Of a DNA stretch of 64,000 nt, positions 5,281 to 64,000 are shown piece by piece. The notes beneath the pieces are model-generated. The model searched no databases. It was given only the letters and a program-made list of their open reading frames with translations, and was not told where the DNA came from. The position numbers were made by a program, and so were the translations under genes. The DNA comes from Eucommia ulmoides (lineage: Eukaryota > Streptophyta > Magnoliopsida > Garryales > Eucommiaceae): NCBI GenBank assembly GCA_016647705.1, contig CM028334.1, positions 14,120,402 through 14,184,401 on the forward strand, read 5' to 3'. How positions within the stretch are numbered: the first letter of the stretch is position 1; each line of letters opens with the position of its first letter.

Positions 5281-5394
5281 TTAATTTAAATTAACAGAAT
5301 TAATTTTGAAAAAAAATAAATAAATAAAAGCCTAAAATCAAAAAACTCAAAATACATAAAACAAACCCTAAAATCCCACCCACCCCAAGAACTG

Positions 5395-7500: not shown

Positions 7501-7514
7501 TTGTTTTTCTAGGC

Positions 7515-8433
7515 ATGGATAAAAGTTGGATGAATTTGAATGATATATTTTTCAAAGAGTACATGGATGGCGTAAAAAGTTTTATTAATTTTACGAAAAA
7601 TAGTGTTAACGTGGACGGTTTGATATGTTGTCCTTGTCGAAATTGTCTCAACACGCGCTTCAAATCATTGGCAGCCATTGAGGATGATTTATGTATTCGA
7701 GGGATAGATAGAACTTACAAGGAATGGATATTACATGGGGAAAAAGCTTTAACCGATTTCTGTTTTCAAGCTACGAACACCGATGATAAGGAGATCCGTT
7801 TTGAAGAGGATAATGATGATGAATTGCTAGAGATGTTAGAGGATGTGAGAAAAGGAAATTTAATAGAAAATGCTTGTGATGAATCAGATAAAATAGATGA
7901 AGGAGATTCTGGATCATTTTCTAACTTATTAAAAGAGGCTAAACGTGAATTATATCCAAGTTGTTCTACACATTTTGTGTTATCTTTTATAGTGAAGTTG
8001 CTCCATTTTAAGGTCTTGAACAAGTGGAGTAACAAATCAATCGACATGTTCCTGCCCTTCTTAAAAGAGGTGTTACCTGAGGGCGAGAGGCTTCCATCAA
8101 CCATGTATGAGGCTAAAAAGATTTTACGTGACTTAGGGCTGGGTTATGTGTCCATTGATGCTTACAAATTTGATTGTGCATTGTTTTGGAAGGATCATGA
8201 AAATGATGAATGTTGCCATGTGTGCGGGGAGTCACAATACAAAGAGTAAAATAATTCCACACAAGGTGCTACGATACTTTCCGGTAAAATCGAGATTGCA
8301 GCGATTGTTTATGTCTAGAAAAACCTCACGTGACATGAGGTGGCACAAGGAAAAGAAAGAGAATGAGGATGGAATTATGAGGCATCCCGCAACTACTAAT
8401 TATGTAATTATCAATCAATCCATTAGTTGGTGA
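7515..8433 (+). pseudogene. TNP2-like CACTA transposase, N-terminal remnant
   Basis: The frame from 7515 gives 244 residues. It starts MDKSWMNLNDIFFKEYMDGV and carries the transposase-associated domain of En/Spm TNP2 proteins: CPCRNCLN near residues 38-45, and GIDRTYKEWILHGE around residues 62-76. An acidic linker follows, then the block containing LPSTMYEAKKILRDLGLGY and a CxxC near the end (CHVCGE). The reading then shifts frame near 8245 and continues from about 8250 with IPHKVLRYFPVKSRLQRLF, MRWHKEK and GIMRHPA, all typical of TNP2. The coding sense stops near 8395-8433, just before captured host DNA at 8483. Full TNP2 proteins are several hundred residues longer and include the catalytic region, which is absent here. 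The remnant cannot supply transposition by itself. Confidence 0.9.
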
Positions 8434-8482
8434 ATACCCCCTCCGTATATATATTTATCTAATGTGAAGTATATATATGTAG

Positions 8483-8649
8483 GTGGAATGACAGAGCAGA
8501 AGAAAGTTCAAAGGCGGAAGGTCCTTGCCAAGTTGTCGAAGGAAAATATTTTGATATTAGGACCTACATTCATCAAGGTTGGCCAGCAGTTCTCTACAAG
8601 GATGGACATTCTTGCTTAAGAATATTTTGATCAATTATTAGAGCTTCAG
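8483..8649 (+). pseudogene. Captured exon of an ABC1K8-like chloroplast kinase
   Basis: After a TATATATGTAG acceptor the frame reads GMTEQKKVQRRKVLAKLSK, then ILGPTFIKVGQQFSTRMD, ending EYFDQLLELQ before a CAG|GTCATA donor. This matches the start of the ABC1/UbiB kinase domain, including the KxGQ motif (KVGQ), and is closest in wording to plant ABC1K8 (OSA1/ATH13) proteins. Those are plastid kinases linked to lipid homeostasis and stress tolerance. One in-frame stop is present (TAA where the family has Gln, in DILA*EY). Only one exon is kept, with splice borders preserved, so it was copied as DNA rather than from mRNA. It lies on the same strand as the transposase. It could be spliced into a transposon transcript, but no functional product is expected. 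Confidence 0.85.
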
Positions 8650-9106
8650 GTCATATATCTTTTTTTCCCTTCATTTTTGAACATCATTACTCCAGAGTTC
8701 TCATATTGTTGTATGTTTGTCTATAAAATTGTACTCTACCATCTATTGTCGGTGTTCTTAAGCCATTTCTTTTTAACCATGGGCTATTTTGTAGTTCCAC
8801 ATGTTATCTACAGTTTCTCGTCAGTTTATATATTCCTATAAAGCTGGGAACAAAAGCATAAGTACCGGAACAACAAATATGTTTTTGTTTTGCTTGAAGA
8901 ATTCAGAACAAATTTCAAAAATGAATAAGTTAAATGCTAATTAATGTAAATCCAACTCTTTATCTATAGATTTGTTTTTCAATAATTACTTAATCAATTA
9001 AGCATTTAATAAATTTAACAATTAAATTTCACTACTTACCAGTTCTCAACGATTAAATCTTTAGTTTTACCAAATGTACTCTTAGCTTTCTTTGTTCTCA
9101 CTACAG
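8650..9106. other. Intron-like DNA between captured exons
   Basis: AT-rich sequence without coding sense. It starts with a splice donor (CAG|GTCATA) and ends in TTTGTTCTCACTACAG, a good acceptor. The halves may come from two different host introns joined by capture; no junction is obvious by eye. Confidence 0.4.
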
Positions 9107-9518
9107 TTTATTACATCACAATTGGGTACAAACACCGTTGACCAACTTTCTTGGATAACGCTTTGGTGTCGACCCATCGGAAGTCCATGTTAATGTATGG
9201 TGTATTAGGCTAAATGACATCCCTGTGTTTGAAGACCAGGAAGCTTCTTGGTTAATAAATACATTCTGTCTCAAGGATCAATTGTTGCTTAATTTTTATT
9301 CACAAAGCCGTTTCCCTCACGAGGGAACTGAACAGAGCAGCCTGTCCACGGTGAAGTGCCTTATAAACTTTACTTTCGTTATCGCTATTACTGTTGTCTG
9401 TACATTCATGACCTTTTTCTTGTTAATTTGGTTCAAAATATATGTTTCCTTGGTTGGTGCATACTTGACTTCTGCTACGTATTTTAATGTTCGGCCATGG
9501 CCGATTATGGCTATGTGA
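9107..9518 (+). pseudogene. Captured exon of an LPAT4/5-like acyltransferase
   Basis: The sequence encodes the C-terminal part of plant 1-acyl-sn-glycerol-3-phosphate acyltransferases of the LPAT4/LPAT5 type: ITIGYKHR, PTFLDN, GVDPSEVHVNV, then LLLNFYSQSRFPHEGTE, followed by two hydrophobic stretches (INFTFVIAITVVCTFMTFF and IWFKIYVSLVGAYLTSATYF) that match the membrane segments of the family. The intact enzymes acylate lysophosphatidic acid in the ER. The HX4D catalytic region lies upstream in the parent protein and is not in this fragment. The copy has one in-frame stop (TGA where Cys is expected after YKHR) and one single-base frameshift just after PTFLDN. From about 9163 the frame is open to the stop at 9518. 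The acceptor before 9107 is preserved. Confidence 0.85.
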
Positions 9519-9974
9519 AAAAACTGCATTCAAAGTGATTGATTCGTCCATGTATTTGACGCGAAGGTGAAGTTACTGTTATGTTCTCTATTTCTTTTTC
9601 TGGTTTCTGTTTGTTCCCTCTTTACGTGCTCAGTTTTGTCCTATTTTCATGACAACAAGGTCAACTTTTTTAGCAGGTGTTTCATGAACAAACTGCTGAA
9701 ATTGAGCTATTAATTATTAGTTATGATTTACTTGAAGTTTAATTTTGTACCTGGTTTGCTCTCTCTATATGCACTTTCTACAGTTTTTTTATTGTATTTG
9801 GTGGCTGAAAAAGTACTTCATTTGTTAAATATGCGTCTCTAATTATTTCAAATGCTTGGTTAGAAAGAATAAAATGCTTGGCGAAAACAAGAATAGAAAG
9901 GATGATCTATTTTGTTATTATGTTCAAAAACTTGTGTTACTTTTTTTATAAATGTATTTTTTTGGCAGCTATAA
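9519..9974. other. CACTA 1 interior, no recognisable gene
   Basis: T-rich sequence that could be 3' untranslated or intron DNA belonging to the captured LPAT-like fragment. Nothing else is recognised. It ends in TTTTTTTGGCAG, a good splice acceptor, at about 9967. Confidence 0.35.
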
Positions 9975-10111
9975 TGGGATCCTCATGTACTCCCTTGAAG
10001 CTGCTAAAATTGTTTTTTGCAGTTGCCGCCATAGTCGTGGGTGTTGCGGCTACGATTTTTGCAAGGAGAACCAAAGCTACTGATGTAATTGACGTAATTC
10101 AGTTAAGTTAG
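9975..10111 (+). other. Short ORF, possible third captured fragment
   Basis: Starting at ATGGGATCC the frame reads MGSSCTPLKLLKLFFAVAAI and continues with a hydrophobic stretch (AAIVVGVAATIFA), then basic residues, ending at a stop near 10109. It would be a 45-residue peptide with one membrane segment, preceded by a good splice acceptor. I do not recognise the parent protein. It may be an exon of a third captured host gene or chance. Confidence 0.35.
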
Positions 10112-10589
10112 CATTTTTTTTTTCATTTTTCTACCCTCATTTTATATTTTGTTCCCATTTCCTGTTCTGTTTCGAATTTTTTAGGTGGTTGTTCTCATTT
10201 TATATTATGTTCCCATTTCCTGTTCTGTTTCCAATTTTTTAGGTTGTTGTTTTGAGCTGCAGTTCTTCATATTCCATTCCTTGATTTTTTCCTCTTCATA
10301 TAATGAGTTTTTATGTGTTATTATACTCAGTTAACATATTAACGTTTTTAATTTGGTGTCATTGTTTTTCTTGTAGATGACGGATTGGTAACGAATAAAG
10401 ATCGTTTTACATAAATTTAACACACAACTAGAAATTTTAGCTGTATTTGTTTTGGTTTTTGTTTTTTTTTTTTTTTTTTTTTGTTTTTTTATGAATTTTT
10501 TTAATTGTGTTTAGAATCTTTATCCGTTAATGTATTATTTTTGTTGAATTGTTTCAATTGATAAAATTGTATTTGACAATTTGATTTAA
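10112..10589. other. T-rich CACTA interior with a short direct repeat
   Basis: A segment containing TATGTTCCCATTTCCTGTTC is duplicated in tandem at about 10140-10190 and 10196-10245. The remainder is T-rich with a T19-like tract near 10463-10481. No coding sense. Confidence 0.4.
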
Positions 10590-11145
10590 AGAATATGCAA
10601 TTTTTTGGCAACGAATTTATTTTATCGTTGAAAGTGATGGTTTAGCTTTGACTACACACAATCATGTTCGTAGCAAAATTAGTTTGTTAATTTGCAACAG
10701 TTCATAATATGAATTCTCGTTGCTAATAGTTTTATTCTCTACAAAATAGATATTTGTTGCGCAAAATCATTATTTTTCTCTACGAATAATATTTTGTAGA
10801 GAAATAGGTCATTTTGCAACGGATTATTTGTTGTAGCGAACTACATTGTTTTGCGACAAAATGTTACATTCGTTGCAGTTAATAGGTGACCATTTTTGTT
10901 GCAAAAGATGTTCTTTTAGCTACAAAATTGACATTTGTCTTGAAAACAAATGCCTCAATCATCGTAGCAAAACATTAACATTTTTGCTACGAAAATGTAC
11001 ATTTCGTTGCCAAATATCTTCTGCCACGGACCTACCGCTACGAACCTAGCTACGACAAATATTCGTTGACAAAAAGATTTTATTACGAAATGTTAAGTTT
11101 TACCTACGAATTAATTCGTAGCCGAAAGTCATTTTTCTTGTAGTG
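10590..11145 (-). repeat. CACTA 1 right subterminal repeats and TIR
   Basis: Repeated TTGCTACGAA/TTCGTTGC-type words in both orientations precede the 31 bp TIR at 11115-11145, the exact inverse of 4526-4556. Confidence 0.85.
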
Positions 11146-20558: not shown

Positions 20559-22495
20559 CACTTGCAATAACAAATATCAATTGCCATAAGAAAATATCAT
20601 TCATTAATTAAATCTGCACAAAAATAAATCATTCTTTTTATAGATATATTGTATTTATATTTCTTTATTCTTTCTTAAGTACGGTGCCATAGGGCTCCTA
20701 GAATTTTTCATCGGCTGTCGATTTGTATACTTAATGTTATCCTCTCGGAATCGAAGTTATTTTGTTCGTTAATCAACTTTACCACATATTATTGTTACAT
20801 GCTATACACTAACGTGTTAAGAATTTGATCGTCTATGATTGCTCTTCCATGTAACAAAGTCGTCATTTGATTTACTTCTTGTGCACAACATGTTGGCTTG
20901 TCTATTATTTTCTAAACAATGTATCAAAAAGAAAATTATTCAAGTCACCAGTATTTGGTATCCATTCAACCATTGGAATGTTGTATATGGCTGAGATATG
21001 GGTAGAGCTCTATTGACCGCCTTGTTTTGTACACTAAATATATTAGTATGTTCACTAGAATGTTCATTTCCTAAAGAATAACCAACCGGATTTTATTTTA
21101 TTATTTAATGAATGTGAAAAAGTTTTTCCTTCCGAATAGTCCCTTTGACTCTTCCGTCGAAGTAAATCTAATCAAAATTCCATTAGTACAGAATATATTT
21201 CCTTTTTGATTATGCTATTAATCAATAAGGCAAATTTCTTCCTTCAAAATTATAAAATTCAACTTACTATAACTAACTTGTGTGTAAACATTAACCCAAG
21301 TTAACAAAAAAAAAAATGTATAACGATAACATTATGAACAAATTAAAATCCGTTTTCGTATTGTCTTAGTGTCGACACACTGTAACAAACAAAAAAAAGT
21401 GGGCAAATATGATTTACTGTATTGACCTTCACTTTTACATTGTGTTGTCAACACAATCTGAAGATGCCAATGTCATTGTTAACATTAACAACGAGGGTCA
21501 AAACAGAGTAATAGAAAAAGTAGGACATAAAATTAAATGGAAATATAAATACATATTTTATTAAAAAAGAGAAATTTATTATGTAGTCCTTAAGAGATAT
21601 ATAAATCATAAAGTAGAACCCCAACTAACTTAACAAAGTTTTTAGTCCTCAAAGATGTTTTAGAAAATAGTCCTTACTTATTTGACCTTTTTTTTTTTTC
21701 CCATTATTTATATACAATGTCGTTCCGTAAAAAAAAAAAAACACAACGTGAACATTGAAAAAATCTAAGATCAACGAAAAACCAAGTGGCGTGAACGTTT
21801 CGTCAAAACCACGTTAACATTCACCCAAAGCTACCCAGAACAAACAAATGAAGACAACGAAAACCCATTAAGCTCAACAGAAAGAAAAAAAAAGTGCCAT
21901 CAACATTCACTAGCCATGAATGACACATTCACCACGAACTACTAAAATTGCTATGAACTTTATCGAACCGAAACGAAACAAACAATCAATATGAAAATCA
22001 TTGAGAACATACCTAAAATCAACAAAAAAAAAAATTCACAATGAATTAACAAAACTCCACCACAATCAACAAAAATCAAACACATCCGAACCCCAGTGTG
22101 AGCATACAAAAATACACAATCAAGACCTATAAAGACCCCTAAAGATCAACGGAAAAACATTTGGGTAAATCAATAAGATCTCAACAAATATCCACAAATC
22201 AAAACAAATCTAGGCCAGTGTGAACATTCACACCAGCACAAATCAAGAGCAATGAAAAAAGGTCCTAAAAATGAATAAAAAAACGAACCAACGTGAACAT
22301 GAAGCAAATTGCAAATGAACATCCTCCAACCGACGCGGTGGAAACAAACAATTAGATCTAAAATGAACATGAACATTCAGATCTAAAATGAACATGACCA
22401 TGAACTTGTTCAATGGAATTTCCAATATCTGAATTGGGGAGGATAGAGACAAAGAGAGAGAGAAAGAAAGAGAGTGAAAGATCCGAAGCTGGATG
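20559..22495. other. Intergenic DNA, no recognisable gene
   Basis: Moderately AT-rich DNA. Between about 21560 and 22495 are A-rich stretches with repeated short words (AACATTCA, AAATGAACATGA) that continue after the retrotransposon at 28040. The LTR element at 22501 is therefore inserted inside an older repeat-like unit. No conserved coding sequence recognised. Confidence 0.35.
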
Positions 22496-22500
22496 ATGGT

Positions 22501-24468
22501 TGTGACAACCCGGTTTCCCAGGGCCGAGACTATCGTTTTTCCTATAGAGAATTCTTATCCTACAACCGACTCGTCAACTTCCCAATATACAATATGAGGT
22601 AATTTTTATTAATAATGGCGATAATTCTTGTTACCGATTTTACGACGACAATTATTAAATCTAATAGTTATTATTTAAATATCACCAAATAAAAATTTAA
22701 TCATCTATTTTATATTTAATCCACTCACTTTCTGTACAACGGCAACCAATTTAAAAGTCTCAGATTTATAATTTAAATCCCTATTTCCAATATTTTATTA
22801 ACTTGGATTATCTCAACACCATTTTATCTCAAAATTATTTTTACAGTATATTACAATTTAGACATTTTACAAACAATTTTGAAAATCATACTTATCAATT
22901 CTTCTAATTACAGCAATAAATAATAATTACAATTTTCACAACTCGACATTTCAAATAAAATTCTTCTCTCGTTTTCTCCCAGCCGTCCCTGCAACCAAAC
23001 ACTGTGGGGTTGTGAGCTAACGCTCAGTAGAACTTCAACCCCTTTAATACATACATTTAATCTATCACACAAACCACGTAAACATGCTCGTCATATAAAT
23101 TCCACATCGTTCAACTTTAATAAACACATTTTTCACATTTTATATAATTTCGACGAGTTACCAAATAATTTCATAATCACACAATGCGACAATTAAATAC
23201 AATCAAATACATATATTAGTAGAGTTCGGAATTCTACCTTTCCCGGATTTTCTGCTGGACGCGAGATTGGATTTTTTGTTTTTAGTAGGGTGTTTTATGA
23301 AATTTTCTGTTTCTTTTTTCCTTTTTTTTTTTCTCTCTTTCTTTTTCTTCTTCGTTGTCTGCGTCTGCTTCCTGCTGCAGCCAACATCGTTGCGGAGAAC
23401 TCCCCACCGCCGCGGCAAAAATGCTTCTTCTCTCTTTAATTTACTCACTGACCCGCCACCGCCTAGGCGAACGCGCTCCCCCTTTCTTTCTGATCTGGTC
23501 ACTGAAGCTTCTCCGCCTAGGCGAACTTGCCATCGTTTGACCTGCTCTGTTTTTTCCCGAAAACCAGCCGTCTCTCTCTTTCTCTCTCTCCTCGCTAACT
23601 CCGATCATGCCTAAACACTCACAATGGCTGCCGAACCACAACAAACTCACACCACCAGACCAAACACACACACACATACTTACGATCATCTCTACCACCG
23701 TCGGACCAACTGAATGATGGTACAACACACACACCCACTTCACCGGTGACTCCCTCTGTCTGCGCGCACACCAAGCAACATACCCTGATCATACACATAC
23801 ACACACTCTGACGATCAAAACACACACATAAAACACACAATCATGCACCCCCCCTTCAACAGACTACCACTGACCGTCAAACCTGCTCTCTCTCTCTCTC
23901 TTTCGTTTTTTATTTTTGTTTCCTTTCAACCAACTAACAACGACACACATACACACCACAACAATTTAACACATACGCACATACATGCCATAGACTCACC
24001 GGAGGAACACACCCTCGCCGATGACCCATATGCATACCCACAAGATCACTGGCAACAAAACTGATAAACGACATACACGTATACATGGCAACATACATAC
24101 AAGACAAACACATAATCCCACCGCCGACGAATCCTACACAATCAACGACAAAACAGCACACACGCACATGAACAAATTAGAAACAGAGCATACACATACT
24201 CACCGGAATGACGACCACACCGTCTGCCATTTCTCTCTCTCTCTCTCTCTCTCTCCGATTTCCTATGTTTTCGTTCTACTGAGTTTTGTCGACACAACAC
24301 ACCTACACGAACGTCGATTGCTTCTTCTTTTATTTCGTTTCAGACCGAACGCCCGACCACCTCTCTTTGTTGCCGGCAGCTCTTCTCTCTCTTCTTTCTT
24401 TCTCTTCGTTCTGATCGCTTCTCGATTCTTCCTCTTCCTCTCTCTATGTTCCCCTCCGTATATATGTG

Positions 24469-24511
<43 letters not shown>

Positions 24512-24708
24512 GTTTTATTTGCACTAAACCCCCCCTTTATTTTAGTTAATTTATAAATTAACTCAATCTATAATTTTCATGTTTTGAAAATTACAATTTG
24601 ACCCTTAAACTTTTAAATCAATAATAAATAATGCCATCCACCCCGTTATTTTCAAATGTGCTCAAATGCAACTCAAATTGTACGTATAAGAAAAATCGGG
24701 GTCTTACA
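22501..24708 (-). repeat. 3' LTR of the minus-strand LARD-like element
   Basis: Starts TGTGACAACCCGG and ends GGGGTCTTACA on the plus strand, TG...CA in either orientation. It contains CT-rich and CA-rich low-complexity tracts and a (TA)n run at 24471-24507. Confidence 0.9.
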
Positions 24709-25817
24709 ACCCTTCCCCCCCTAAAAGAAATTTCGTCCCGAAATTTTCGTGGAAAACAATAGGAATTAAAATTTCAATCAAACCAATAAAAATTCAGAAT
24801 CGCACCCCATGGTCATGTTAGTTGCACTTGATTCTAGAACAATGGTTTTTTTTGTAGAGTCCCATAACCGAAAGTCACCCTTAATTCATAACCAACAATC
24901 CGTTCCAACATCGTAATATTTTCATTCGCAGTGGCCCACATGATATCCAATAACTAACAAATAAGGTACACTTTGGTTGGCAACACCTAGCACAGACAAC
25001 CAACTGTCAAAGAATCTTCTGTCTCCAAATGCTTCCGTTGTGCTACTCTAATAAAAACAACAATAAATACAATACATCCTTAAAATGTCACGGTAGTCTC
25101 AGTGGGTTGGATCTATCTCATTCCAACAAAAATTTTCCCATAACCAGCATTTATCCATTTCATCTGACATTTCCAGTAAATCTATTCACAACGATATTTT
25201 CATCCAACATTTAAACCAATAATACTCACAACCACTATCACAAGCAACAGATAGCCCAAACTCCACGTGAACTGGCCTATGAGACGAAAAATCATCAATA
25301 TCAATATTTATATCAAAATTTTCAATAGTCTCATAAACATTCTATAAATATTACCACAATCGAACGTCAAATAATAAATATTTCGCTATATGTCAAAATC
25401 ACATAGATAAGTTTCTAATCACGTCAAAATCATATAAATATCCCTCAAAACACATAAATATCACCAAATCACATCAATACGTATCAAATACGTCAAACGG
25501 GTCATCTATAAGAATTCTTTCTATGCCTCCATGAAAATATTAATGCACATACATCGCCACTTGATAATATCACGTAATTCTGGATGGAAACAAATATGAC
25601 ACATAGATAACGTTTCAGGAATCCATGAAAATGACATAAATCACGTATTATATTAACTTCATACATGCACACATAAAACACATTTCACTTTTATTTCACA
25701 ATTCCGCTAACATTAACAGTTTATTATGATAGATGGGTATCCTAACCCCGGTTCAAAGTGCTCTCCAATCTAAGTTCTAAGTCTGTAGAGTCTATAATCT
25801 AAGCTCTGATACCAATC
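24709..25817 (-). other. Internal region of the LARD-like element
   Basis: No protein-coding similarity. Next to the left LTR is a minus-strand polypurine tract (plus-strand CCCTTCCCCCCT, about 24710-24722) with an ATTTCGTCCCGAAATTT word just inside it, a pattern found near the 3' end of Del/Tekay Gypsy elements. The minus-strand PBS TGGTATCAGAGC lies 3 bases inside the right LTR. Confidence 0.8.
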
Positions 25818-27142
25818 TGTGACGACCTAGTTTCCCAGGGCCGAGACTACGGTTTCTCCTATAGAGAATTCCTATCCTGACGAAAATTATTAAATCTAAT
25901 AGTCACTATTTAAATATCACCAAATAAAAATTTAATCATCCATTTTATATTTAATCCACTCATTTTCTGCACAACGGCGACCAATTTAAAAGTCTCAAAT
26001 TTATAATTTAAATCCCTATTTCCAATATTTTATCAACTCGGATTATCTCAACACCATTTTATGTCAAATTATTTTTACAGTATATTACAATTTAGACATT
26101 TTACAAACAATTTCGAAAATCATACTTCTCAATTCTTCTGATTACAACAATAAATAATAATTACAATTTTCACAACTCGACATTTCAAATAAAATTCTTC
26201 CCTCATTTTTTCCCAACCGTCCCTGCAACCGAACACTGTGAGGTTGCCAGCTAACGCTTAGTAGAATTTCAACCCCTCTAATACATGCATTTAATCTATC
26301 ACATAAACATGCTCGTCATATAAATTTCACATCGTCCAACTTTAATAAACACATTTTTCAAATTTTATATAATTTCGACGAGTTACCAAATAATTTTATA
26401 ATCACACAATGCGACAATTAAATACAATCAAATAGATATATTAGTAGAGTTCGAAATTCAACCTTTCCCAAATTTTCTACTGGCCGTGAGATTGGATTTT
26501 TGGTTTTTAGCAGGGTGTTTTATGAAATTTTATGGGTTTTTTTTCCTTTTCCTTTTCCTTTTTCTCTTTTTCTTTTTCTTTCTTTTTCTTCTTCGTTGTC
26601 TGCATTTGCTTCCTGCTGCGGCGAACTCCCCACCGCCGCGGTTAAGATGCTTCTTCTCTCTTTAATTTACTCACTGACCTGCCACCGCCTAGGCGAACGC
26701 GCTCCTCCTTTCTTTCTGATCTGCTCACTGAAGCTTCTCTGCCTAGGCGAAGCTAGTCACTACCTAAGCGAACTCCCTATCGTCTGACCTACTCTGTTTT
26801 TTCCCGAAAACCAGCTGTCTCTCTCTTTCTCTCTCTCCTCGCAAACTCCGATCATGCCTAAACACTCACGACGGCTGCCAAACCCCAACAAACTCACACC
26901 ACCAGACCACACACACACACACACACACACATACTCACGATCTTCTCTACCACCGTCGAACCAACTGAACGACGGCACAACGCACACAGTCACTTCACCG
27001 GCGACTCCCTCTGTATGCACACACGCGCACACACCAAGCCACATACCCTGATCACACACATACACACATTCCGACGATCAAAACACACACATAAAACACA
27101 CAATCATACACCCCCTTCAACGGACTACCACTGACCGTTGAA

Positions 27143-27186
<44 letters not shown>

Positions 27187-28034
27187 TTCTGTTTCTGTTT
27201 CCTTTCAACCAACCAACGACGACACACATACAAACCGCAACAATTTAACACACACGCACATACATGCCATAGACTCACCGAAGGAACACACCCACGCCGA
27301 CAACCCATACGCATACCCACATGATCACTGGCAACAAAACCGATGAACGACATACACGCATATATGGCAACATACATACACGAAAAACACATAATCCCAC
27401 CGCCGGAGAATCCTACACGATCGACGACAGAACAGCACACACGCACATGAACAAATCATAAACAAAGCATACACACACTCACCGGAGTGACGACCATACC
27501 GTCTGTCGTTTCTCTCTCTCTTTCTCCGATTTCCTCTGTTTTCGTTCTGCTGGGTTTTGTCGACACAACACACCCACGCGAATGTCGATCGCTTCTGCTT
27601 TTATTTTGTTTCAAACCGAATGGCCGACCACCTCCCTTTGATGCCGGCAGCTCCTCTCTCTCTTCGTTCTGATCGCTTCTCGATTCTTCCTCTTCCTCTC
27701 TTTGTGTTCCCCTCCGTATGTATGTGTATAATATATATATATACATATTGATATGTGTGTGTGATCAAACGGCCAGCCAAGTGGCCCTTCTCTCCTCCAT
27801 TAATTTTCACCAACTCTCTCTCTATATATATATAAAATATTTTATTTGCACTAAACCCCCCTTCATTTTAGTTAATTTATAAATTAACTTAATTTATAAT
27901 TTTTATGTTTTGAAAATTACAATTTGACCCTTAAACATTTAAATCAATAATAAATAACGCCATCCACCCCGTTATTTTCAAATGTGCTCAAATGCGACTC
28001 AAATTGTACGTATAAGAAAAATCAGGGTCTTACA
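25818..28034 (-). repeat. 5' LTR of the minus-strand LARD-like element
   Basis: Starts TGTGACGACCTAG and ends CAGGGTCTTACA on the plus strand. It is collinear with the left LTR apart from a few length differences in low-complexity tracts, including a (CT)n run at 27146-27183. Confidence 0.9.
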
Positions 28035-43478: not shown

Positions 43479-44007
43479 TTAAATAAAAATAAATAAAATT
43501 CACTCAACACACTATATTAATAATAAATAGAAATTAAATTATTAAATTAATAATAAATAATATTTAAATTTATTTAAATATAAAATGTTAAAAAGAGATA
43601 AATTGAGGAAAATAAAGAGATAGATTTTTTTTTTATCATTTAATAGGTTTCGAAATGGAGAATCCATGAGAGGACAAATATTACATTTGGTGAGCACTCA
43701 TTCATTTCAAAGTAAAATCTTTCAATTTTAGGTTTTTAGAAAAAAAAAAAAAAAAAAAAATTCTAAGAATTAATTTTTTTTTTTTTTTTAATTTATGAAA
43801 TTTACAATTTATATATAAACTTAATCATTTTTTTTTTGAATTACTTGGTGAAGTCTTCACATGAGACTTTATTTAGCAATAGTTTCAATTATGTTCAAAT
43901 AGTAGGCTTACGAAATTTCCAATTGTTATTTTTAATCATTTGCTGTGTCTTTTCTTTTTAACTCGTTTAGTATATGAAGTTTCTTCCTTACAAAATAATA
44001 TTTTTAA

Positions 44008-44180
44008 GGGTTAATTATATTTTACCTCCTGTGGTTATGTCGTTTTGTACTTTACTCCCTTATGATATTTTCTTCACCACTTACCCCCTTGTGCTTGTGA
44101 ACTAAAGTGCAACAGTTAAAATTTAGGGTTAATTACATTTTACCCCCTCATAATTAGGTCATTTTGTACTTTACCAGCAT
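44008..44180 (+). mobile_element. Two truncated left ends of the GGGTTAAT family
   Basis: GGGTTAATTATATTTTACC at about 44008 and GGGTTAATTACATTTTACCC at about 44125 lie in the same orientation. Neither has a matching right end nearby, so both are truncated or deleted copies. The second abuts the PMD fragment. Confidence 0.65.
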
Positions 44181-44189
44181 GTATTCGAC

Positions 44190-45360
44190 ATAGTAGTTTT
44201 GTGCTTGAGTCGATTTTCGTACTTCGAGCTCCAGAGGACCTAGTGTTGAGAGATCAGCGCTATCGCGTCCTATTATATCTATTTCTTGGAAGGACCTTCA
44301 TGGATACTTCGAGTTCCACCATCCCTCTCCACTTCGTAGGGACTCTAAGTGATTTAGCCGGCTTGGTAGAGTTGTTTGGGAGAGCTTCACCTTTGCAACC
44401 TTCTTAGAAGGGATGCACTCTAGTTTATCAACTTGCATGTCATGGGATTCTGGCAGTTTCTACCTGTAAGTTCCTTTGACTTCTTCTTTATATTCTTCTT
44501 CTCCATTATTTGGTTTTTTTTTTTTTTTTTTTTCATTTTTTCATGCAGTATTGAGCATATGAGTACTTTTCCTCATGTTGCTGCTATTCTACTGCAGATG
44601 ACTGCTTCCCCGTGGGACAAAGTGGCATCGCTCTATCCTGGATGAAGGGTTCTCCTTTCACAATCGTGTTGTGGCTCACACTCAGCTAGAGTTCCTGGAG
44701 AGATATCATTTGGCAATCATATCGCCGAGACACTTATTGGGCAGAGATGCTTCTTGAGAGGACACTATCGACTCAGTGTCGTATCTTCAGAGGTCCATCT
44801 TCCTAAGGTTTATACATGAGTGAGAGAACTACACCTCAAATCTTTGGTAGGTTATGCCAGCCTCCCGATCCTTTGGCTATGCGATTTGGTCCTTATACTG
44901 ACATTATCGATCCGGATATACTCAATCTAGCGGTTCCAGCAGACGTGCTAGTTGTTCCCTCAATTTCTAAAGAGGAGTACCTTAAGTGGTTTTCACATTT
45001 ATCGATTGGCTCTCAAACGGATGTAGCAAACCTAATGGGAGGTACCTTGCTAGGTCACAGGGTACTGACCTTCTGGGCGAGTCGCAGTGACGAGGAGGTG
45101 GTTCCAGCTTTTAAGCTTAGAACCATCAGGGCTGAGAAAGATGCTCTTAGAGAGGAATACAATTAGCGTCGCCGGCATGGTGAGGATTTGCAATAAGAGA
45201 TATATAGACTTTGCGCGCTATCATATCCAGTTCCTTCACCTATGGCTCGCACAACTATTCTTGGTACAACAGAGTTCATGGTTGACCTGGAGACTTCTAT
45301 CTCTTTCGCTACGCCGACCCTACCGACTGGAGGTTCAGGAAGAAGTATGGATTGACCCAT
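44190..45360 (+). pseudogene. Second plant mobile domain gene fragment (different subfamily)
   Basis: Blocks are VLLYLFLGRTFMDTSSSTIP with ASFATFLEGMHSSLSTC-like wording to a donor near 44466, then from about 44680 WRDIIWQSYRR, YMSERTTPQIFGRLCQPPD and ISKEEYLKWFSHLSIGSQ. A region predicted coiled-coil by composition (LRTIRAEKDALREEYN) follows. The order and spacing match PMD proteins, in which a YLxxxxG block is followed by an ERxxRQFGxxQxxPxxP block and an EYxxWF block. The wording differs from the PMD gene at 2.6 kb, so it is not a simple duplicate. Frameshifts and stops separate the blocks, so it is a pseudogene. It could continue on the far side of CACTA 2 (49.7 kb), but I cannot show that. 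Confidence 0.65.
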
Positions 45361-45768
45361 GTCAGACCCTCAATAGGCGCATACGTTTTGTTTTCCTTTG
45401 GTTGTATATTTATATATCTGGGGATATGTATTGTATAGTTTTACATGTATCATTTTGGGTATGTATTATAGTGGGTGTATTGTTTTTGGACATGTATCAC
45501 GGTGGATATAGTTGTATATGTATCGGGATGGATGTACATATATTTTTCTTTCTTGATGTATACTTTTCTTTATTATTTTACTTACACATAGGATGTTTAT
45601 GCATTATTTTAGTTCTTTATATTCATTATCAGAGGTGGAGTATTGGTAGTGTAGATAGTTAGCTGATAAATCTTATATTTACTTATTCCTTTATTAGCAT
45701 GTATTTCTTTAAATATCTTATGCTAACATCTTTCCTAAAACATAAATAAACCTAACAATGATAACAAA
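45361..45768. other. Spacer between the PMD fragment and CACTA 2
   Basis: T-rich DNA containing repeated ATGTATYRYGGTGG-like words (45420-45540), perhaps intron or 3' DNA of the PMD fragment. Nothing further recognised. Confidence 0.3.
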
Positions 45769-46019
45769 CACTACAAGAAATTTTTTTTTTTATCACGCTT
45801 AGTAAATATAATTTATCTCATTTTTTTAGTAAACTGTGATTATATAATTATACATGCCATTTAATCTCATTTGAAAACAAATGTGTGATGAAAAAATCTT
45901 TTTATCTCATAATTTTAATCAACTATGACAGTATGTAATCACCACGTTTTTTTATTTTAACGGACATAATAAGTTCCCTTCCGCTTTTTTCTTGCCTCTT
46001 AAATACAACGTCTCTTCTT

Positions 46020-46052
46020 TCACTCCCATACCCTAGCAGCCGCGCAGCGACG

Positions 46053-46096
<44 letters not shown>

Positions 46097-46910
46097 TGCG
46101 ATCGATATAGCCTCTCTCTCTCGAAATCTCCATCACAACTCTGGTGATCTCTCCATCACCTTCGCCATCGCCATCACAGCTTTGGCGATCTCTCATCTCG
46201 AAATCGCCATCGATCTCGAAATCAAAATCGAAATCGCCATCGCACATTTGCCATCGCCATCGCACATTTGCCATCGCTATCACTAAGTTTTCTCTCGATC
46301 TCAAAATCGCTGAGATCTCTCTCTCTCGATCTCACTATTGATCTCTCTCTCTTTCTTTAGTGCTACTTCATTACACCTTCTGATGCTGCTCCCGTGGTGT
46401 AGGAAGATAGCAGTCTATCCGCAACTATGAAGCATCCTGCCAACGATGAAGTCGTCTTCAGCAAATGCTACCTCAAATCCGCGGTAGTTCGAGCTTCATG
46501 GTTCAATCGATAGCTTCAAATCAGGACGTCGTACTCCTTCTTCTGAAATTTAATTTCTTCTTCAGGGTTTTAATTTAGATCTTCATTGTCATTGAAAATA
46601 CGTTAAATACCACTGTTAGTTTGGGGCACATTGAGGTTGTATATAACAGTACAACTAAGAGGTGATTTCCCTCGTATATCTTAGTTTTGAATTGGATGCT
46701 TCTATGAATTTTTGGGATTTGTTTGAGCTTTTCTCCTATTTGTCCTTCAAAATTTCAGGGTATTTGTATTTTGATCTTGATTTTCTAGTTGGGTGCTTGA
46801 ATTTCCTTTTGTGCATGTTTCTTGATCTCCATCTTCATTTTGCAACCTATGAGCATATCCCTTTGTTAACTCTGTGACTTTGAGTTGTGTATGCCTTACA
46901 TTCTTAACAG
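46020..46910 (+). other. Leader-like region of CACTA 2
   Basis: A (CT)n tract at 46052-46080 is followed by low-complexity CGAAATCGCCATCG repeats. Then comes mixed DNA containing GTGGTGTAGGAAGATAGCAG and several candidate splice sites, which may be the 5' region of the captured gene or transposon leader. A polypyrimidine tract and TTCTTAACAG end it at 46910. Confidence 0.4.
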
Positions 46911-49263
46911 ATGTCTGCAGCGGCATTTGCTAAAGGCCTCCTTGACTTGGAAGGACAATTAACACCAATCTTGGTATTTGAAGTTGTTTGATTACTCTCT
47001 TGTTCTGTTTATTCATATAACTGAGATGGCTGACAATTTTTTTTTAAGGTTTCACTAGTTATCAAGGACTCCTCTATGTTGGATGGACTTGACAATGCTA
47101 GTATTGAGATGGAAGATGCAAAGGTTTGTGTTTTTCCTTTACCTAGTTCCAACATATTGTATTATATTTGTGTCAAAAATCAAAAGGTTAAATTGATGAA
47201 AATTATCATATCCATCAACTTTGAACATTATTTGATTTTGGTTGAATTAAGTTTGACATGTAGCATACAAGTTATATGTTACAACTCATTTCATAGCTAT
47301 TCATTCTACAGTTCTACCCACATTTCCTGCCTCCATAAGGCCTAGACTAGTTTGGTTCTTTTTTTTTTTATCAAGGATTACTCATAGAGATATTCTGAAG
47401 TGAAGAATCAACAATGGCTTTCTTGATTGATCAAGAGTAGCACATTATGCTTGTGCCCCTTGTAAAGGGAGCGGTGGTCGTATAAATAATCTAGAAAAAT
47501 GCATCCAATAATTGGTTCAATTTCAATTGTAGTGTAGATTTTACGTGAAAATCTAAGTGAGCATCAGTCTTACCCTAATGTATCATCAAGTAATTCAATT
47601 TAGTAGGGGAAAATGGTTATTATGTTTTAATTAGTTGTTAAGGTATTTAGAAGTAAAAAATTTAGGTCGATTGCATGTTCTATTTTTCTATAGCAGTGAT
47701 TCTTTTCCCCAACTTTTTCCCCAGACTCGTTTGAATGAGATGATAACTTCTGGAGTAAAGATAGTTCATAATGGCGGATCATCTGAAAACCCTTGGATGG
47801 TTGATGGGGCTGGACTTCCCCCAAATGCTTCTCAACTTCTGCCTGAACTGGTAATAACTCTTGATATGTCTTGTACTGCTGCCTAGTTTCGTTTGTTTAT
47901 ACTCGGAAATCATAATCCTTGAATAAAGAATCAGTTATCTATCACATGTTTTATTTCGACTAATTCAGGGCTACTTTATGCAATTATAATATGTAATATC
48001 AACGCCAGTTTTCTTCAGAGCCCTAGGTTTCAAAAAAATGGTTAGCAATTGCATGTTAAGAGGAAGGAATGAAATAATGTAAGTGAACGAGAAAATTTTC
48101 TTTAGTTAATTGACCTTTGGTTTGTTTTCCTGCTTTCAAATCTTTCAACTAGGTCAAACTGACTAAAAAGGTCACCGAACAAGTGAGACGTGTTGTCAAT
48201 CTTTTTTCGACTGTGTTTTTGTGTGTGGTTATGGTTGCGGTTGTGGTTGTAGTGCATGCATTCCTATGCTGGTTGCCTGTTTCGTGTGCGATTGTGTGAA
48301 GCTCCTGGAATTTTTTCCTCTAAGTGGTTTTGGTTTCACTAATTATTGGTTTCTTTCTAGTGCTTATAAGAAAGTAGCAAACGATAGATTTTGACTTCTA
48401 CTTATTTACTCATAAGTGGTAAATTTACTCGTGACTCCTTTAGTTTTTCTAAGATTTCACATGAAGCATCTTTATTTTTTTTGGTACTTATCACTTCTTT
48501 CTACTCTCCTTTCTTGAGTGTTTATGATAATTAATAAACAAAGAAGCACTTAAAATAATTCATCCAACCTTATTATCTTTACTATTTGCTTGGAAAATCC
48601 CTCCTTGATCTCCTCTAACCATTGATCTTCCATCCTATAGTGCAATGTAATGTCAAACGTCTATTACCTTTTTCCTTTTGAATGATAAATCTCATTTAAC
48701 TTTAGATGTGTATAACGCAAATTCCATTTCCATCTGTTGCAACATCATCTCCCACTCTAATTTCTAACAGTTTGTCCAAATTTACATTAACGGTTTGTCC
48801 AAATTTAGGAAATTCCATATGGATGTGCCTGAGCAAGGCATTTTGGCTTAACCTGAAATGCTTTAGTTATTTGGTATTGTTTTTGTGACAATGAACCGTT
48901 TTATGTAACATTTAAGATCAAATGAATCTTCTTATGCTTGTCTATTACCACTTGATACATTTTTTGGTTGCTCTAGTGGCTGAATCAAGAGTTGCCATGC
49001 TGAATGATCTACGGAAAAGGGAATTGTGTCTATCGTATTTTTGCTTCCTGTATTCTAATGGAGTGACATAAATTAGCTAGTGATCTTAAAATGCCAAGGA
49101 TGAAGATGAGAAACTTGCAGAGATTGGCTCATATGATGTAATACCTCCACATGATCAAGCAAGGGCACTTGGTAAAACAAATATAGATGTGGATCGTATT
49201 GATGTTTGCTCGGTGTAGAAAACTTGAAAGAGACTTGTATTATGAATGTAAAGAGTAAGCGTT
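46911..49263 (+). pseudogene. Captured VIH1/VIH2-like (PPIP5K) fragment, five exons
   Basis: Exons with GT-AG borders: 46911-46973 (FAKGLLDLEGQLTPIL), 47049-47123 (DSSMLDGLDNASIEMEDAK), 47725-47850 ([18 protein letters not shown]), 48153-48182 or so (VKLTKKVTEQ), and about 49091-49263 ([17 protein letters not shown], then [14 protein letters not shown] in a shifted frame). This is the order found in the phosphatase-domain half of plant diphosphoinositol pentakisphosphate kinases VIH1/VIH2. The intact enzymes make the inositol pyrophosphate InsP8, a phosphate-status signal. Both ends of the parent are missing, including the ATP-grasp kinase domain. In the last exon a short deletion removes the residues between DRI and the FAR block and shifts the frame. 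Introns are retained, so capture was at the DNA level. A spliced transcript could contain about 100 sense codons of VIH sequence. Confidence 0.9.
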
Positions 49264-49734
49264 TATGCTATATGACATTAGTTGTTTTAGAAATATGAAA
49301 TTCATTTTTAGCTAATTTGTGGTAGCATTTTTTTATATAATAGTGCTGCTTTTTTTGTAATTTTTTTTTTAATATATATATATATATATGTGTGAAACTA
49401 TCACAATTTTTATATGTGATAGAAAATAGGGTAACTATCTCGATTTGATACAAAATTGAGATAAATATTGTCCAACTAATCATGTTTTTTTTTTTTTAAT
49501 TTTATCACATATATATGATCTTTTAATCACATTTGAAAACTAAGATTATATGTACTAAGCATCTCGGTTTTTAACTGTGATAAAAAGTCTTTCATCTTGG
49601 TTTTTAACTGTGATAGAAAGTCTACTTTTAATTACACTGCATACTATCACGGTTTGATTTGGGACCGAAAACCGTGACAAAATGCTTTTTATCACGGTTT
49701 TTAACCGTGATAAAATGCCTTTTTTCTTGTAGTG
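49264..49734 (-). repeat. CACTA 2 right subterminal repeats
   Basis: Repeated AACCGTGATAAAA and TATCACGGTT words in both orientations run up to the terminal CTTGTAGTG at 49734. Confidence 0.8.
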
Positions 49735-49802
49735 AAGATTTTATGCAAGAATTTTCTCTATCATATTAAGATCTTATGTTAGGTAGTTTTGGATGACGTT
49801 CC

Positions 49803-49919
49803 TCTTCTCGGGAGAAAGGAAAGCGACTGGTTTGCCATTCTAAAAAGGGTCGTTCATTCTATCATATTGTCACTTCGTTAGAGGCAGGGAGACCTAGCAT
49901 TATAGCTCAGTCTGGACAG
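49803..49919 (+). other. Coding-like exon of unknown origin
   Basis: An open frame of 39 codons reads SSREKGKRLVCHSKKGRSF and then YHIVTSLEAGRPSIIAQSGQ, followed directly by a good donor, CAG|GTAAGA. Composition and the donor suggest a real, formerly coding exon. It could be part of the gene that CACTA 2 entered. I do not recognise it. Confidence 0.35.
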
Positions 49920-51949
49920 GTAAGATCACTACTTATGCAACTTAGTGTGTGAAGCTTTAGTACTTGCTATTTATTTTAAATCAGTCTTATGTATCTTATG
50001 TTAATTGTTTAAATTGGTAATTAATGTTTATATTGTCTTTCGTGATTCCAATTTTCGGAGTTAGGTTAAATACCGTTTTGCCTTTAGCCATTCTAAATTA
50101 ACTTCAACTATATCGAGAAAATGGGAAAAAGGTTACTTGGTGGTTTGCTCAGGCTTTCTACCGGGCTCAAGAATCTTGATAACTGGAATGCCTATCTTCC
50201 TTTGGATAACATAAATTCTTCTTCCTTATTACACTTTTCCTCGTTTTAGTACCTTTGTCCTTCTTTATCCGGTTTTTCCAATCATAGGGGTAGTAAATCA
50301 TCTTAGGTTCATTTATATCCCCTTTTGTTTTCCTAGATTTCCTTTAGTTTAGATTTCAGTGTCTCGACTTATTGTCTTTATCACGGCTTTGTATATATCC
50401 CTCTTTATCTCTTAGAGGATTATTTAACTAAAGTAAGTTTTTAATCTCCATATTCTAGCGTTCAAAAATCGATTTGTAGTAAGTTTTTAATCTCTATAAT
50501 CTAGCGTTCAAAAATCGATTTGTTATCATAATTCTTTACACCAATTTTTTTTTTGGAATATGATAAGCACAATTTTAACAGGAATTTTGAATAGTCACCT
50601 TAGTAGTTTGTTATCCAGGATCGCCTAGTCCAATTCCATTAAGTTTCAATATTTAAATTTTCTAAGATTGTTATTTGAATTGCCAAGGCCCTATATGTTA
50701 CACGAGGTTTCTTCAACAACTTTGCTTCACGTTTTTTGTCTTGGATTGAGGGAAATCAGAATGGGCCTTTCACATTTTCTATCTTGGACTAAGGGCAATC
50801 AGAATGGACCTTCCCAAGATGACTCACAAGAGGGAGAATAGCAGTGATGAAGAAACAAGTGTTAGCTAATGACGATTAACAAATGTTATTATGTCCCGAT
50901 AGTGTTAAGAGAATCTTCTTTTAGTTTTCTTTACTCCATCAAGTAGGGTGTCATACTTTTTATATAATTCATTTAGTGAGCTTTAGGTAGTGATCCCGGT
51001 CCAGTTGGCCCAAGTCAATAGGTGTTGTGACACCCCTACGACTTAATACTTGGATTATATAAAGAGCGTGATTCACCCGACTACTTTCGTGTGACCACTC
51101 AGTGTTTAGAAACTCGTTTTAGAAAAGCCTTTGTTTGTTATTTTCTTTCTCTTAACACATACTTTCAGGATTTTATATTTTTAAAGAACTAGGGTAGTTT
51201 GAGTCAGTCTCAAGGTCTTCGTTGGTTTTGCCCTTATCCTGACTACGTTTCCCATTATTAAGTATTATCTGGATGAAGTCTTATTGTGTTCTTCCATTCT
51301 TGGTTATCTTCAATTCTACAAGGTTCCTTCTACGTTTATTTTAGGTAGGTTTCCATGTACTTTTGAATTGGTTATGTCTTGATAAGTCTTAGTTTATATT
51401 AGTCAATCATTCTTTGTTCAACTACCTGATTTTTCAAGAATTTTTATCAGACGGGTTTAGGCTCTAAGGCTTTATCTATCATTATCCACATCACAAATCT
51501 TCCGGAAATTTCTTCCTTCATTCTTGTTGAGGAGGTCTTCTATACATCTTCAAGGTTACTCGGATACTCTCGGGTTGGAACATGTGTAGTGATTTCACAA
51601 TAGGGATCCTAAGTTTTTCTCCTAACTTTCTTAGATTTTATTAGCAATATCTCACCATCTTTTGGTTGAAACAAGACTTTCCTTTTAACGTTACTTTGGA
51701 TTATGTTTCACCTAAATGTTAAAACCATATTCATCATAAACTTAGTTTTTCTATAGTGTATAAAACTATGATAAACATTTTAACTGTTGAAGGCCTGAAA
51801 TGGAAATTCTAGACAAACTTTAGGTAGATAATAATGTACTTTGTAATAGTAGGGTTATACCTTAGTCACTTATGGACGTTATCTGAACACCAAAATTCCC
51901 TACTTAAGGAAAGCTAAGAAAAGCAAAAAACTAGATAGATTCCAAAATA
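49920..51949. other. Long stretch without recognisable genes
   Basis: Mixed-composition DNA (less AT-rich than the foldback regions), probably the degraded remainder of the minus-strand Ogre/Tat-like element whose gag lies to the right. No conserved domain was read on either strand. A 50 bp segment ending TAGCGTTCAAAAATCGATTT is tandemly duplicated at about 50430-50525. Confidence 0.35.
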
Positions 51950-62045: not shown

Positions 62046-62306
62046 CACTACAAGAAAAAATAGCATTAGTTACGAACTTTAGCAACGAAAATAAAATTCA
62101 TCGTAAAAGAATAGTATTGGCGACGAAATATAATTTTCACGCAAAAGTTCAAGGACAATTAACCACGACATACAAAAATCGTCACTAAATTTTTTTTTTT
62201 TTTTTCGCGACAAAAGTAAAATATTTGTCATTAAATTAGTCACAAATAATGTATTACTATTTTTCTTCTTTTAGAAACAAATAAAATATAATTAGCAACA
62301 ATTATT

Positions 62307-62873
62307 TTGGTGGCTAAAAAAGTTAGAATTTATAGCGACCATACATTTCCTTTAAATACCAAAATATTAATAATAATATATCTTTCACACCCACATATCC
62401 CAAATACCCAAATTCATCGGCTATTCTTGGTTCTCGATTTCCTTTCATCTTCGTGCCTCTGCTTGGTTCCCAAATTTCATCTTCGCGCCTCTACTTGGTT
62501 CCCAAATTTCATCTTCGCACGTGTTCCCAAATCTTGCCTTGCACATTCTCATGGAAATCTCCACGGTGATTGTTTTCCTTGTTGGCTCCAATTTAGGTCA
62601 AGTTCACGGCTTTTCTTGTTTCACAAATGGAAGTTGCTTCTCTCTTCTTCAATCTCCATTGCCCCTCTTCTCCTCGTAGTCCAATCCGAGGAACCGCTCC
62701 GATTGTGTCTACATAAGTTGTTCACCGCCGCCTTGCAGTACTCCTCCCGGTTGTCGCTGCAATTCGCTCCAAACCTAGCTATCGCCACTCAAATCTCCTC
62801 TTCAATCTCTTCCCTATTGTTAGCCATTGTTGGTTTGCTGGTACGCATCTCTATCTATCTCTCTCTCAATTAG
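62307..62873 (+). other. Possible captured 5' gene region in CACTA 3
   Basis: Composition changes to CT-rich, leader-like DNA from about 62390, with a twice-repeated TTGGTTCCCAAATTTCATCT. An ATG near 62629 starts MEVASLFFNLHCPSSPRSPI, which looks like the beginning of an organelle-targeting presequence (Ser/Arg-rich, few acids), but it meets a stop after about 30 codons; a plausible donor (GGT|ACG) lies near 62840. A longer open frame overlaps it in another reading. I do not recognise the gene; by analogy with CACTA 1 and 2 it may be captured host DNA. Confidence 0.35.
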
Positions 62874-64000
62874 CATCTCAATCTATCTCTCAATTAGAAT
62901 GGAATTTTCATTCTTTTGTCATTATGTACCCTAGCTAAAGAAATTAGAATGAACATCTGTAATAATGTCATACAAAACCCTAATTGATTTTTCTTCAATT
63001 TTTTTGGTGGAATTTTCTATTTTTTAATTCTTTGACTAAAAAACAATGGATCCCTGCAGTGAAAGTGTTTTCAGATTCTGTTCTATTTCGTTCATAGTGT
63101 TTCAATTCCTGTAACATGTAAACTTGGAGTTGGCAAAAAAGGCATGAAAATCCAAATCAATAATGTTTCAAGAACCATAAGTAGCAATTGTTTTGTGTTT
63201 TTGTTTACCATGTTTCCAATTCTATTACCGGAAATCTGAGAACAATTCCGTTTAATTTCAGAAATTTGTTCTAAAATTATTTGGACAAGAACAGAAAAAA
63301 ATTTCCAGAAACAGAAACACTAAAAAAAGGGGGCCTGATTTCTAGAAATCTGAGCCAAATTCAGAAGCTTGAGTCGTTTGTGGGATTGTAGTAAAAATAG
63401 ACATCACCATCAGCCTCCAGCTTGATCTATCTAGTATCCATATAGAGTAATATTAATAATGCATTGGTTTCTTGTTGTGCTTATTCTTTTGTTGGTCCTG
63501 GTGATTTTCAAACCCTCAAGTAGAAGAAATTACTTGATTTTTTTTTTTTTTACATTACTAATTATTGTTTACTCAATTAAACCCTTTTTTGGTAGACTTT
63601 TTTTTTTTTGGATTTTTGAATATTTATCACAATTTACTTTGAAAAAAAAAAAACCAGCAACTTTTTAAAGTATATGTTCAGCAACTTTTAACAAAAACAA
63701 CAACTTTAGAAAAAAATAGCAACTTTTTTATGTATCTGTTCACCAACTTTTTTGGGAAAAAATAACAACTTTCTATTTTAAAAAAAAAAAGAAAACTACA
63801 ACTTTCTATGTTCTGTTTAGAAAAATAGGGCTCTTTCGGCTTGCTAGTAGATTGCTAGAATGTGTAGTTTAACCAAAACTCTGTCAAGCTAAAATTTGAG
63901 CCTCTGGCATAGAATGTTGACTTATAGAGCACTAAATATACAATTCGAGGCAGTTGTTCTGTGTTTCATCTTTATGCTTCTTTTTTTTGGAAACAACTTT
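62874..64000. other. CACTA 3 interior, nothing recognised
   Basis: AT-rich, intron-like DNA with repeated CAACTTTTT/AACAACTTT words from 63650 to 63810. No coding sense. Confidence 0.4.

Follow-up and report, generated by a model that had tools for sequence, protein, structure and literature searches.

Captured VIH gene DNA in a probable multi-copy Pack-CACTA transposon family of Eucommia ulmoides

The stretch of DNA considered here, called the window below, comprises 64,000 nucleotides of the Eucommia ulmoides genome (C10:14120402-14184401). At 45769-49734 it holds an element of the CACTA transposon superfamily, and inside the ends of this element lies DNA of a VIH gene, a gene of the VIH/PPIP5K type. 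Very probably, the element belongs to a multi-copy Pack-CACTA family that is non-autonomous and whose members carry captured VIH DNA. The genome searched contains 946.7 Mb in 391 contigs, and the counts of genome matches given below are lower bounds. Positions within the element are collected in Table 1.

The hallmarks of the CACTA superfamily are present: terminal inverted repeats that start with CACTA, and short subterminal repeats in both orientations. The original prediction had placed CACTA ends here, and these prove to be a terminal inverted repeat of 12 bp without mismatch, CACTACAAGAAA from position 45769 on and TTTCTTGTAGTG up to position 49734. Subterminal repeats of the ATCACGGTTTTTAACCGTGAT type are found at 49561-49726, with a weaker set at 45787-45928. 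When a transposase of the element's own was looked for in 45769-49734, the longest stop-to-stop frame had 115 amino acids. No Pfam family was found at E 0.01 in the 6 frames scanned out of the 13 that have at least 60 amino acids.

The captured DNA can be delimited by comparison with its donor, a resident VIH gene at C15:2720001-2750000 (L010-L012) of the same genome. Searching window positions 44001-51500 against the donor locus with blastn gave two matches only. The longer, 46608-48189 against C15:2736934-2738574, has 89.97% identity over 1645 aligned columns (90.0% in round figures), far above chance. The claim that VIH coding DNA lies here in the correct order with GT-AG borders is confirmed. 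The shorter, 49092-49292, has 79.1% identity over 239 columns, a lower value because of a 38-bp deletion. VIH similarity in this query is confined to 46608-49292, wholly within the element ends, and the check proposed for similarity beyond 45769-49734 found none. The extent first given to the VIH sequence, 46911-49263, was rightly placed within the element but begins too late; the captured stretch starts at 46608, in VIH intron DNA upstream of exon 1 (46911).

Here, exon numbers 1-4 count within the captured fragment, not within the whole VIH gene. The matching donor exons have AG/GT borders and lengths of 63, 75, 126 and 242. Five exons had been proposed for the element. They are real VIH exons, but there are four of them, since the supposed fifth is the rest of exon 4. 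What had been taken for intron 4 (48190-49091) is not an intron; it is a 902-bp insert from the locus of a KH-domain gene, and it lies inside exon 4. Because the intron positions are those of the donor and the introns are kept, capture occurred at the level of DNA. This had been suggested from the outset, and it is upheld by the donor, by 30 further places in the genome and by VIH-less relatives of the backbone, all described below. The fragment amounts, of course, to only four exons of the phosphatase half, with the frame broken and with no complete kinase or phosphatase domain. Its His_Phos_2 score stays under the cut-off (15.9 vs 23.6 bits), and a search of the PDB with the joined fragment gave weak, unrelated matches only. 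NCBIfam gave no family at E 0.01.

The donor gene is apparently full-length. Its VIH-type exons, read by eye, span about 20 kb and encode both halves of a VIH/PPIP5K protein, an N-terminal kinase and a C-terminal histidine phosphatase. In the kinase half, PPIP5K2_N is found in one exon, and the joined kinase exons match the PPIP5K2 chain 3t7a at E 6.7e-79. In the phosphatase half, His_Phos_2 is found at E 3.5e-19; no solved structure matched the joined phosphatase exons at E 0.01. Genome-wide, one match each was found for PPIP5K2_N and for a conserved VIH exon that does not belong to the captured part. Thus, VIH is single-copy at this sensitivity.

The captured piece, in turn, recurs. Window positions 46911-47500 give at least 33 rows in the genome, namely the window, two rows of the donor, and 30 other places. 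The search for a parent gene and for other copies of the element, which the original prediction had called for, therefore found both, the donor on C15 and at least 30 further places. Twenty of the 30 other places were fetched (17, then 3), and the 21 copies examined are the window and those 20. Counting an end as recognisable if it lies within one mismatch, 15 of the 21 copies have both ends, and 13 of these 15 have exact 3-bp target duplicates. Two copies on C8 that lie about 30 kb apart (L026 and L027, of layout B below) agree fully in the VIH sequence compared and in their flanking bases, and are probably a segmental duplication made after insertion; because they share their flanks, the exact duplicates count as 12 independent ones. 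Among the fetched places, only this pair looks like segmental duplication, and the other copies have differing flanks. Here are found the features of a Pack-CACTA family: host-gene DNA inside the element (from the VIH donor and the KH-gene locus) and several separate insertions.

The backbone is also found without the VIH DNA. For its 3' end (49293-49734), a first look across the genome gave 580 candidates. Among the 40 that were scored, 11, including the window, carry VIH DNA, and the other 29 are not close to any VIH match. A first look across the genome for the 5' end gave 441 candidates, 40 of them scored. Two VIH-less elements, L031 (3598 bp, duplicate AAA) and L032 (3614 bp, duplicate TAT), have both ends of the same backbone and exact 3-bp target duplicates, and they match approximately the first 171 bases of the window element's 5' part. 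A captured gene as the source of 45769-46607 was considered and rejected; the stretch resembles CACTA backbone. A diverged, element-like locus at C12:27911000-27917000 (L033), perhaps an old relative of the backbone, aligns with bases 183-844 of the element and with some of its 3' subterminal region; a search there for CACTA ends, allowing one mismatch, found none.

The copies differ in the part of the donor that they hold. Layout A2 (the window and L013-L017) runs from donor 2736934 to 2738817, with a common deletion of 38-39 bp in exon 4. Layout A1 (L018, L019, L029, L034, L035 and L036) starts at donor 2736549 and ends at 2738817-2738834, and three of its copies (L034, L035, L036) carry inner VIH deletions. 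Layout B (L021-L028) holds donor ~2737243-2738180, preceded in 7 of its 8 copies, the exception being L025, by 2732478-2732983 or part of it. One further copy, the incomplete L020, clusters with A in the tree. Among the A copies, identity to the window is 80-85% at the 5' end and about 93-96% in the VIH part where the two were aligned apart. The lower 5'-end identity is also seen among A2 copies whose cargo junction is identical, so the ends evolve faster in general, and this alone does not point to repeated capture. Four B copies (L022-L025) match the window's 5' end at 71-74% over 333-446 columns; in the remaining B copies that match at the left end, the alignment covers no more than 74-75 bases, at 85-88%.

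Pieces of two other loci accompany the VIH DNA. In all 6 A1 copies, about 207 bp adjoining VIH match C8:1706710-1706916, and in 4 of the 8 B copies about 167 bp of the same piece adjoin VIH; it is thus in 10 of the 21 copies examined, the window copy being without it. Exons of the C8 locus encode GTPase domains (GTP-bdg_N, 6.5e-27; GTP-bdg_M, 1.2e-20), and we take the protein to be an HflX-type GTPase. The piece sits between the GTPase exons and upstream frames, and is probably intron or leader DNA. In the window, the 5' backbone joins donor 2736934 directly, with 5 overlapping bases at 46608-46612; judging from this junction, it is as if A2 had been derived from A1 by one deletion.

The other piece is the insert in exon 4. 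Here the window reads GAGAC, the insert, then CCAAGG, where the donor reads GAGACTACTTGCCAAGG. The insert has three matches in the genome: the window, the copy L015, and C7:34478610-34479508. Upstream at the C7 locus, and on the strand of the match, are exons for KH domains (KH_1, E 1e-17 and 1.8e-6); the insert corresponds to non-coding DNA of this locus, probably intron DNA. Differences number 34 in 899 positions between C7 and the window, 48 in 873 between C7 and L015, and 43 in 875 between L015 and the window. The junctions are identical in the window and L015, which fits one insertion before those two copies parted. Near the C7 locus, frames at L030:5663-6812 (reversed coordinates) resemble, by eye, a Copia-type retrotransposon. 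Taken across its copies, the family appears to be a multi-gene Pack-CACTA with passenger VIH DNA and pieces of three loci.

The captured VIH DNA drifts neutrally in the copies, while the donor is constrained. The test, which addresses coding function only, used donor 2736934-2738817 and 17 copies. Exons keep pace with introns in their rate of change: among exon positions, 82 of 5864 carry a change seen in a single copy, and among intron positions 230 of 17571 do (p 0.60, Fisher test). The exon changes comprise 60 nonsynonymous, 18 synonymous and 4 stop changes, against 73/22/5% expected from the spectrum of these singletons themselves. Changes private to the donor are found in 2 of 468 exon columns vs 49 of 1317 intron columns (p 6e-5). 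Of 18 copies, 6 contain in-frame stops in their aligned codons, and in 9 one or more of the AG or GT borders are gone.

Table 1. Features of the CACTA element and its flanks (window positions)
Feature	Position	Strand	Remarks
Left flank AAA, left target-site duplicate	45766-45768
CACTA element	45769-49734	+	3966 bp, non-autonomous
Left terminal inverted repeat CACTACAAGAAA	45769-45780	+	matches reverse complement of right end over all 12 bp
CACTA backbone, 5' part, subterminal repeats and CT-rich stretch	45769-46607	+	backbone matches in genome
Captured VIH DNA (partial intron, then exons 1-3 and their introns, then beginning of exon 4)	46608-48189	+	89.97% to donor
VIH exon 1 of fragment (MSAAAFAKGLLDLEGQLTPIL)	46911-46973	+	AG/GT borders as in donor
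VIH exon 2 of fragment	47049-47123	+	donor comparison
VIH exon 3 of fragment	47725-47850	+	donor comparison
VIH exon 4, first part, interrupted	48153-48189	+	donor comparison
902-bp insert replacing ~6 bases of VIH exon 4	48190-49091	+	matches C7:34478610-34479508
VIH exon 4, second part, 38-bp frameshifting deletion	49092-49254	+	donor comparison
Start of next VIH intron; captured VIH DNA ends (donor 2738817)	49255-49292	+	blastn
CACTA backbone, 3' part, ATCACGGTTTTTAACCGTGAT-type subterminal repeats	49293-49734	+	backbone matches in genome
Right terminal inverted repeat TTTCTTGTAGTG	49723-49734	+	12 bp, ends at 49734
Right flank AAG, right target-site duplicate, one mismatch	49735-49737

The intron-containing exons, standing in the correct order, are what would be expected if the VIH-like DNA belonged to a VIH gene or pseudogene resident between chance CACTA-like ends. 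The similarity, however, stops at 46608 and 49292, the gene itself is on C15, and the same piece is in at least 30 other places, with both CACTA ends in 15 of 21 copies and 13 exact 3-bp duplicates. A resident gene here is almost certainly the wrong explanation, and a resident pseudogene was rejected because the similarity ends inside the element. The fragment might instead be a new coding gene, making a truncated VIH peptide from the ATG of exon 1; the window copy does have intact splice borders and no in-frame stop in its aligned VIH codons. Against such a gene stand the frameshifting deletion and the 902-bp insert in exon 4, the stops and lost borders counted above (6 and 9 of 18 copies), and a neutral ratio of nonsynonymous, synonymous and stop changes across copies. 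It is exceedingly improbable, and was rejected on that ratio. That the captured exons evolve neutrally speaks against a role as protein, and reveals little about RNA. The captured piece could act in trans, if transcripts of the family gave rise to small RNAs by which the single VIH gene is silenced or methylated. About 30 copies face one detected VIH gene; of the 486 21-mers in the donor's joined exons 1-4, 332 have an exact counterpart in one or more of 18 copies and 180 in the window copy, and 853 of 2263 donor genomic 24-mers are likewise found exactly in at least one of the 18. Such exact sharing makes small-RNA cross-talk possible, and transduplicated sequences may, in the part of PMC2528002 consulted, be transcribed and have a regulatory function. 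Yet the donor reads as a gene under constraint and the copies drift neutrally, although that test covers coding only, and we consider silencing in trans improbable. That a family of about 30 copies would hold a single-copy master gene of phosphate signalling under homology-based control, with small RNAs tuning VIH expression and the inositol pyrophosphate InsP8, seems very improbable. Silencing by the copies, if any, should be both testable and visible, because the donor is the only VIH gene detected and because loss of both VIH genes in Arabidopsis leads to impaired growth and constitutive phosphate-starvation responses (PMC6731061, in the part consulted).

A variant of the preferred explanation asks how often VIH was captured. 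Probably this happened once. Two separate captures from the same VIH gene, giving A (donor 2736549-2738834) and B (2732478-2732983 joined to 2737243-2738180), are rather unlikely. For two captures, it can be said that a tree built from the donor and 17 copies (unrooted, no outgroup) has the shape of a three-way star, whose arms are the donor, A and B, with 100 ultrafast-bootstrap support each for A and B, and that the left and right junctions differ between A and B. Further, the A-B distances (.071-.092;.101-.109 with L029) exceed those from the donor to A (.061-.069; L029.090) and to B (.057-.068), and the fixed sites in 821 columns are 17 donor-only, 10 A-only and 11 B-only. In the overlap of A and B, donor-only changes fall in 0 of 209 exon columns and 16 of 684 intron columns. 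This lack of donor-only exon changes implies that A and B shared little time as unconstrained captured DNA, which means either an early split after one capture or separate captures; the star fits one capture with an early split equally well. The same HflX-locus piece, however, lies beside VIH in both A1 and B. In a short comparison of that piece, 135 of 140 columns are the same, 2 are source-only, 2 A-only and 1 B-only. A 45-bp gap relative to the donor is common to 18 copies, although without an outgroup it may be an insertion in the donor instead. Two captures of one gene by one family would also be less economical.

If the element is, as is preferred here, one copy of a Pack-CACTA family, the following history would account for it. 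Elements of a large CACTA backbone family would have taken up DNA of the resident VIH gene beside a short piece of the HflX-type GTPase locus. These would have spread by transposition with 3-bp target duplication, using a transposase presumably supplied in trans. Internal deletions would then have led to layouts A1, A2 and B. In one A2 sublineage (the window and L015), the 902-bp piece of the KH-gene locus would have entered VIH exon 4, probably as filler in the repair of a break. The captured VIH DNA has drifted since then, its coding content showing no trace of selection.

Several points weigh against this account. The mobility of the family is read from sequence, and the order of the layouts rests on parsimony. 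The window copy's own target duplicate, AAA/AAG, matches at 2 of 3 bases, and L023 is the other copy with both ends and an imperfect duplicate. Six of the 21 copies are without one recognisable end under the one-mismatch rule, and the examined set covers 20 of the 30 other places. A transposase-bearing element with matching ends was not found, no systematic search having been made. The CACTA element at 4526-11145 of the window was rejected as a shown partner, because its subterminal repeats, compared by eye, differ.

This second CACTA element looks complete. It is 6620 bp long, with TCG/TCG target duplicates, subterminal repeats of the GCTACGAA type (by eye) and an open reading frame matching Transpos_assoc at 7515-8249 (E 1.2e-20). 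Inside it, a frame at 9159-9350 matches the acyltransferase C-terminal family PF16076 (E 1.1e-9), and may have been captured from a gene for a lysophosphatidic acid acyltransferase. A further CACTACAAGAA start with its own subterminal motif lies at 62046-64000; no exact TTCTTGTAGTG was found to the right of it within the window. Elsewhere, 22644-24496 and 25879-27754 form a direct repeat of about 1.9 kb with 86% identity, in a region of strong negative GC skew (-0.35 to -0.44 across 22001-28000).

Gene-capturing transposons of this kind are known, and the family clearly adds a new example to them. It is a well-resolved Pack-CACTA case, with donor loci, layouts that can be derived from one another, a later insert from a second gene, and VIH-less relatives; the neutral change in its copies could be used to date it. 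In open-licence PubMed Central, no paper was found that links CACTA, transposon and inositol pyrophosphate, or that combines any three of HflX, CACTA, KH domain and transposon capture. The founding Pack-CACTA paper is reportedly that of Catoni in 2019. Zabala and Vodkin are said to have described, in 2007, a soybean CACTA element with pieces of several host genes, introns included. The family described here is like that element in its host-gene pieces with introns, and is known from DNA sequence alone.

The routes by which transposons capture genes have been reviewed (PMC13317346, consulted in part). In Pack-CACTA elements, according to the sections consulted of Gisby and Catoni (2022; PMC8903248), capture proceeds by neighbouring insertions, with several loci per element, and the CACTA Pack-TYPE elements of rice and maize are mostly of "low copy number." Compared with what those sections describe, the present family has more copies than the rice and maize norm, and its cargo comes from a VIH gene. 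In grapevine, class II elements, CACTA included, show transduplication of host exon and intron DNA that is amplified with the element (PMC2528002, likewise in part). The family resembles that case in that intron and exon pieces of host genes are amplified with the element. It differs from the grapevine case, as far as the consulted part of that paper goes, in its cargo, and in that donor loci, layouts and neutral drift are resolved here for one family. What distinguishes it from the reports consulted is its copy number, its single detected donor gene, and the pieces of three loci found across the family.

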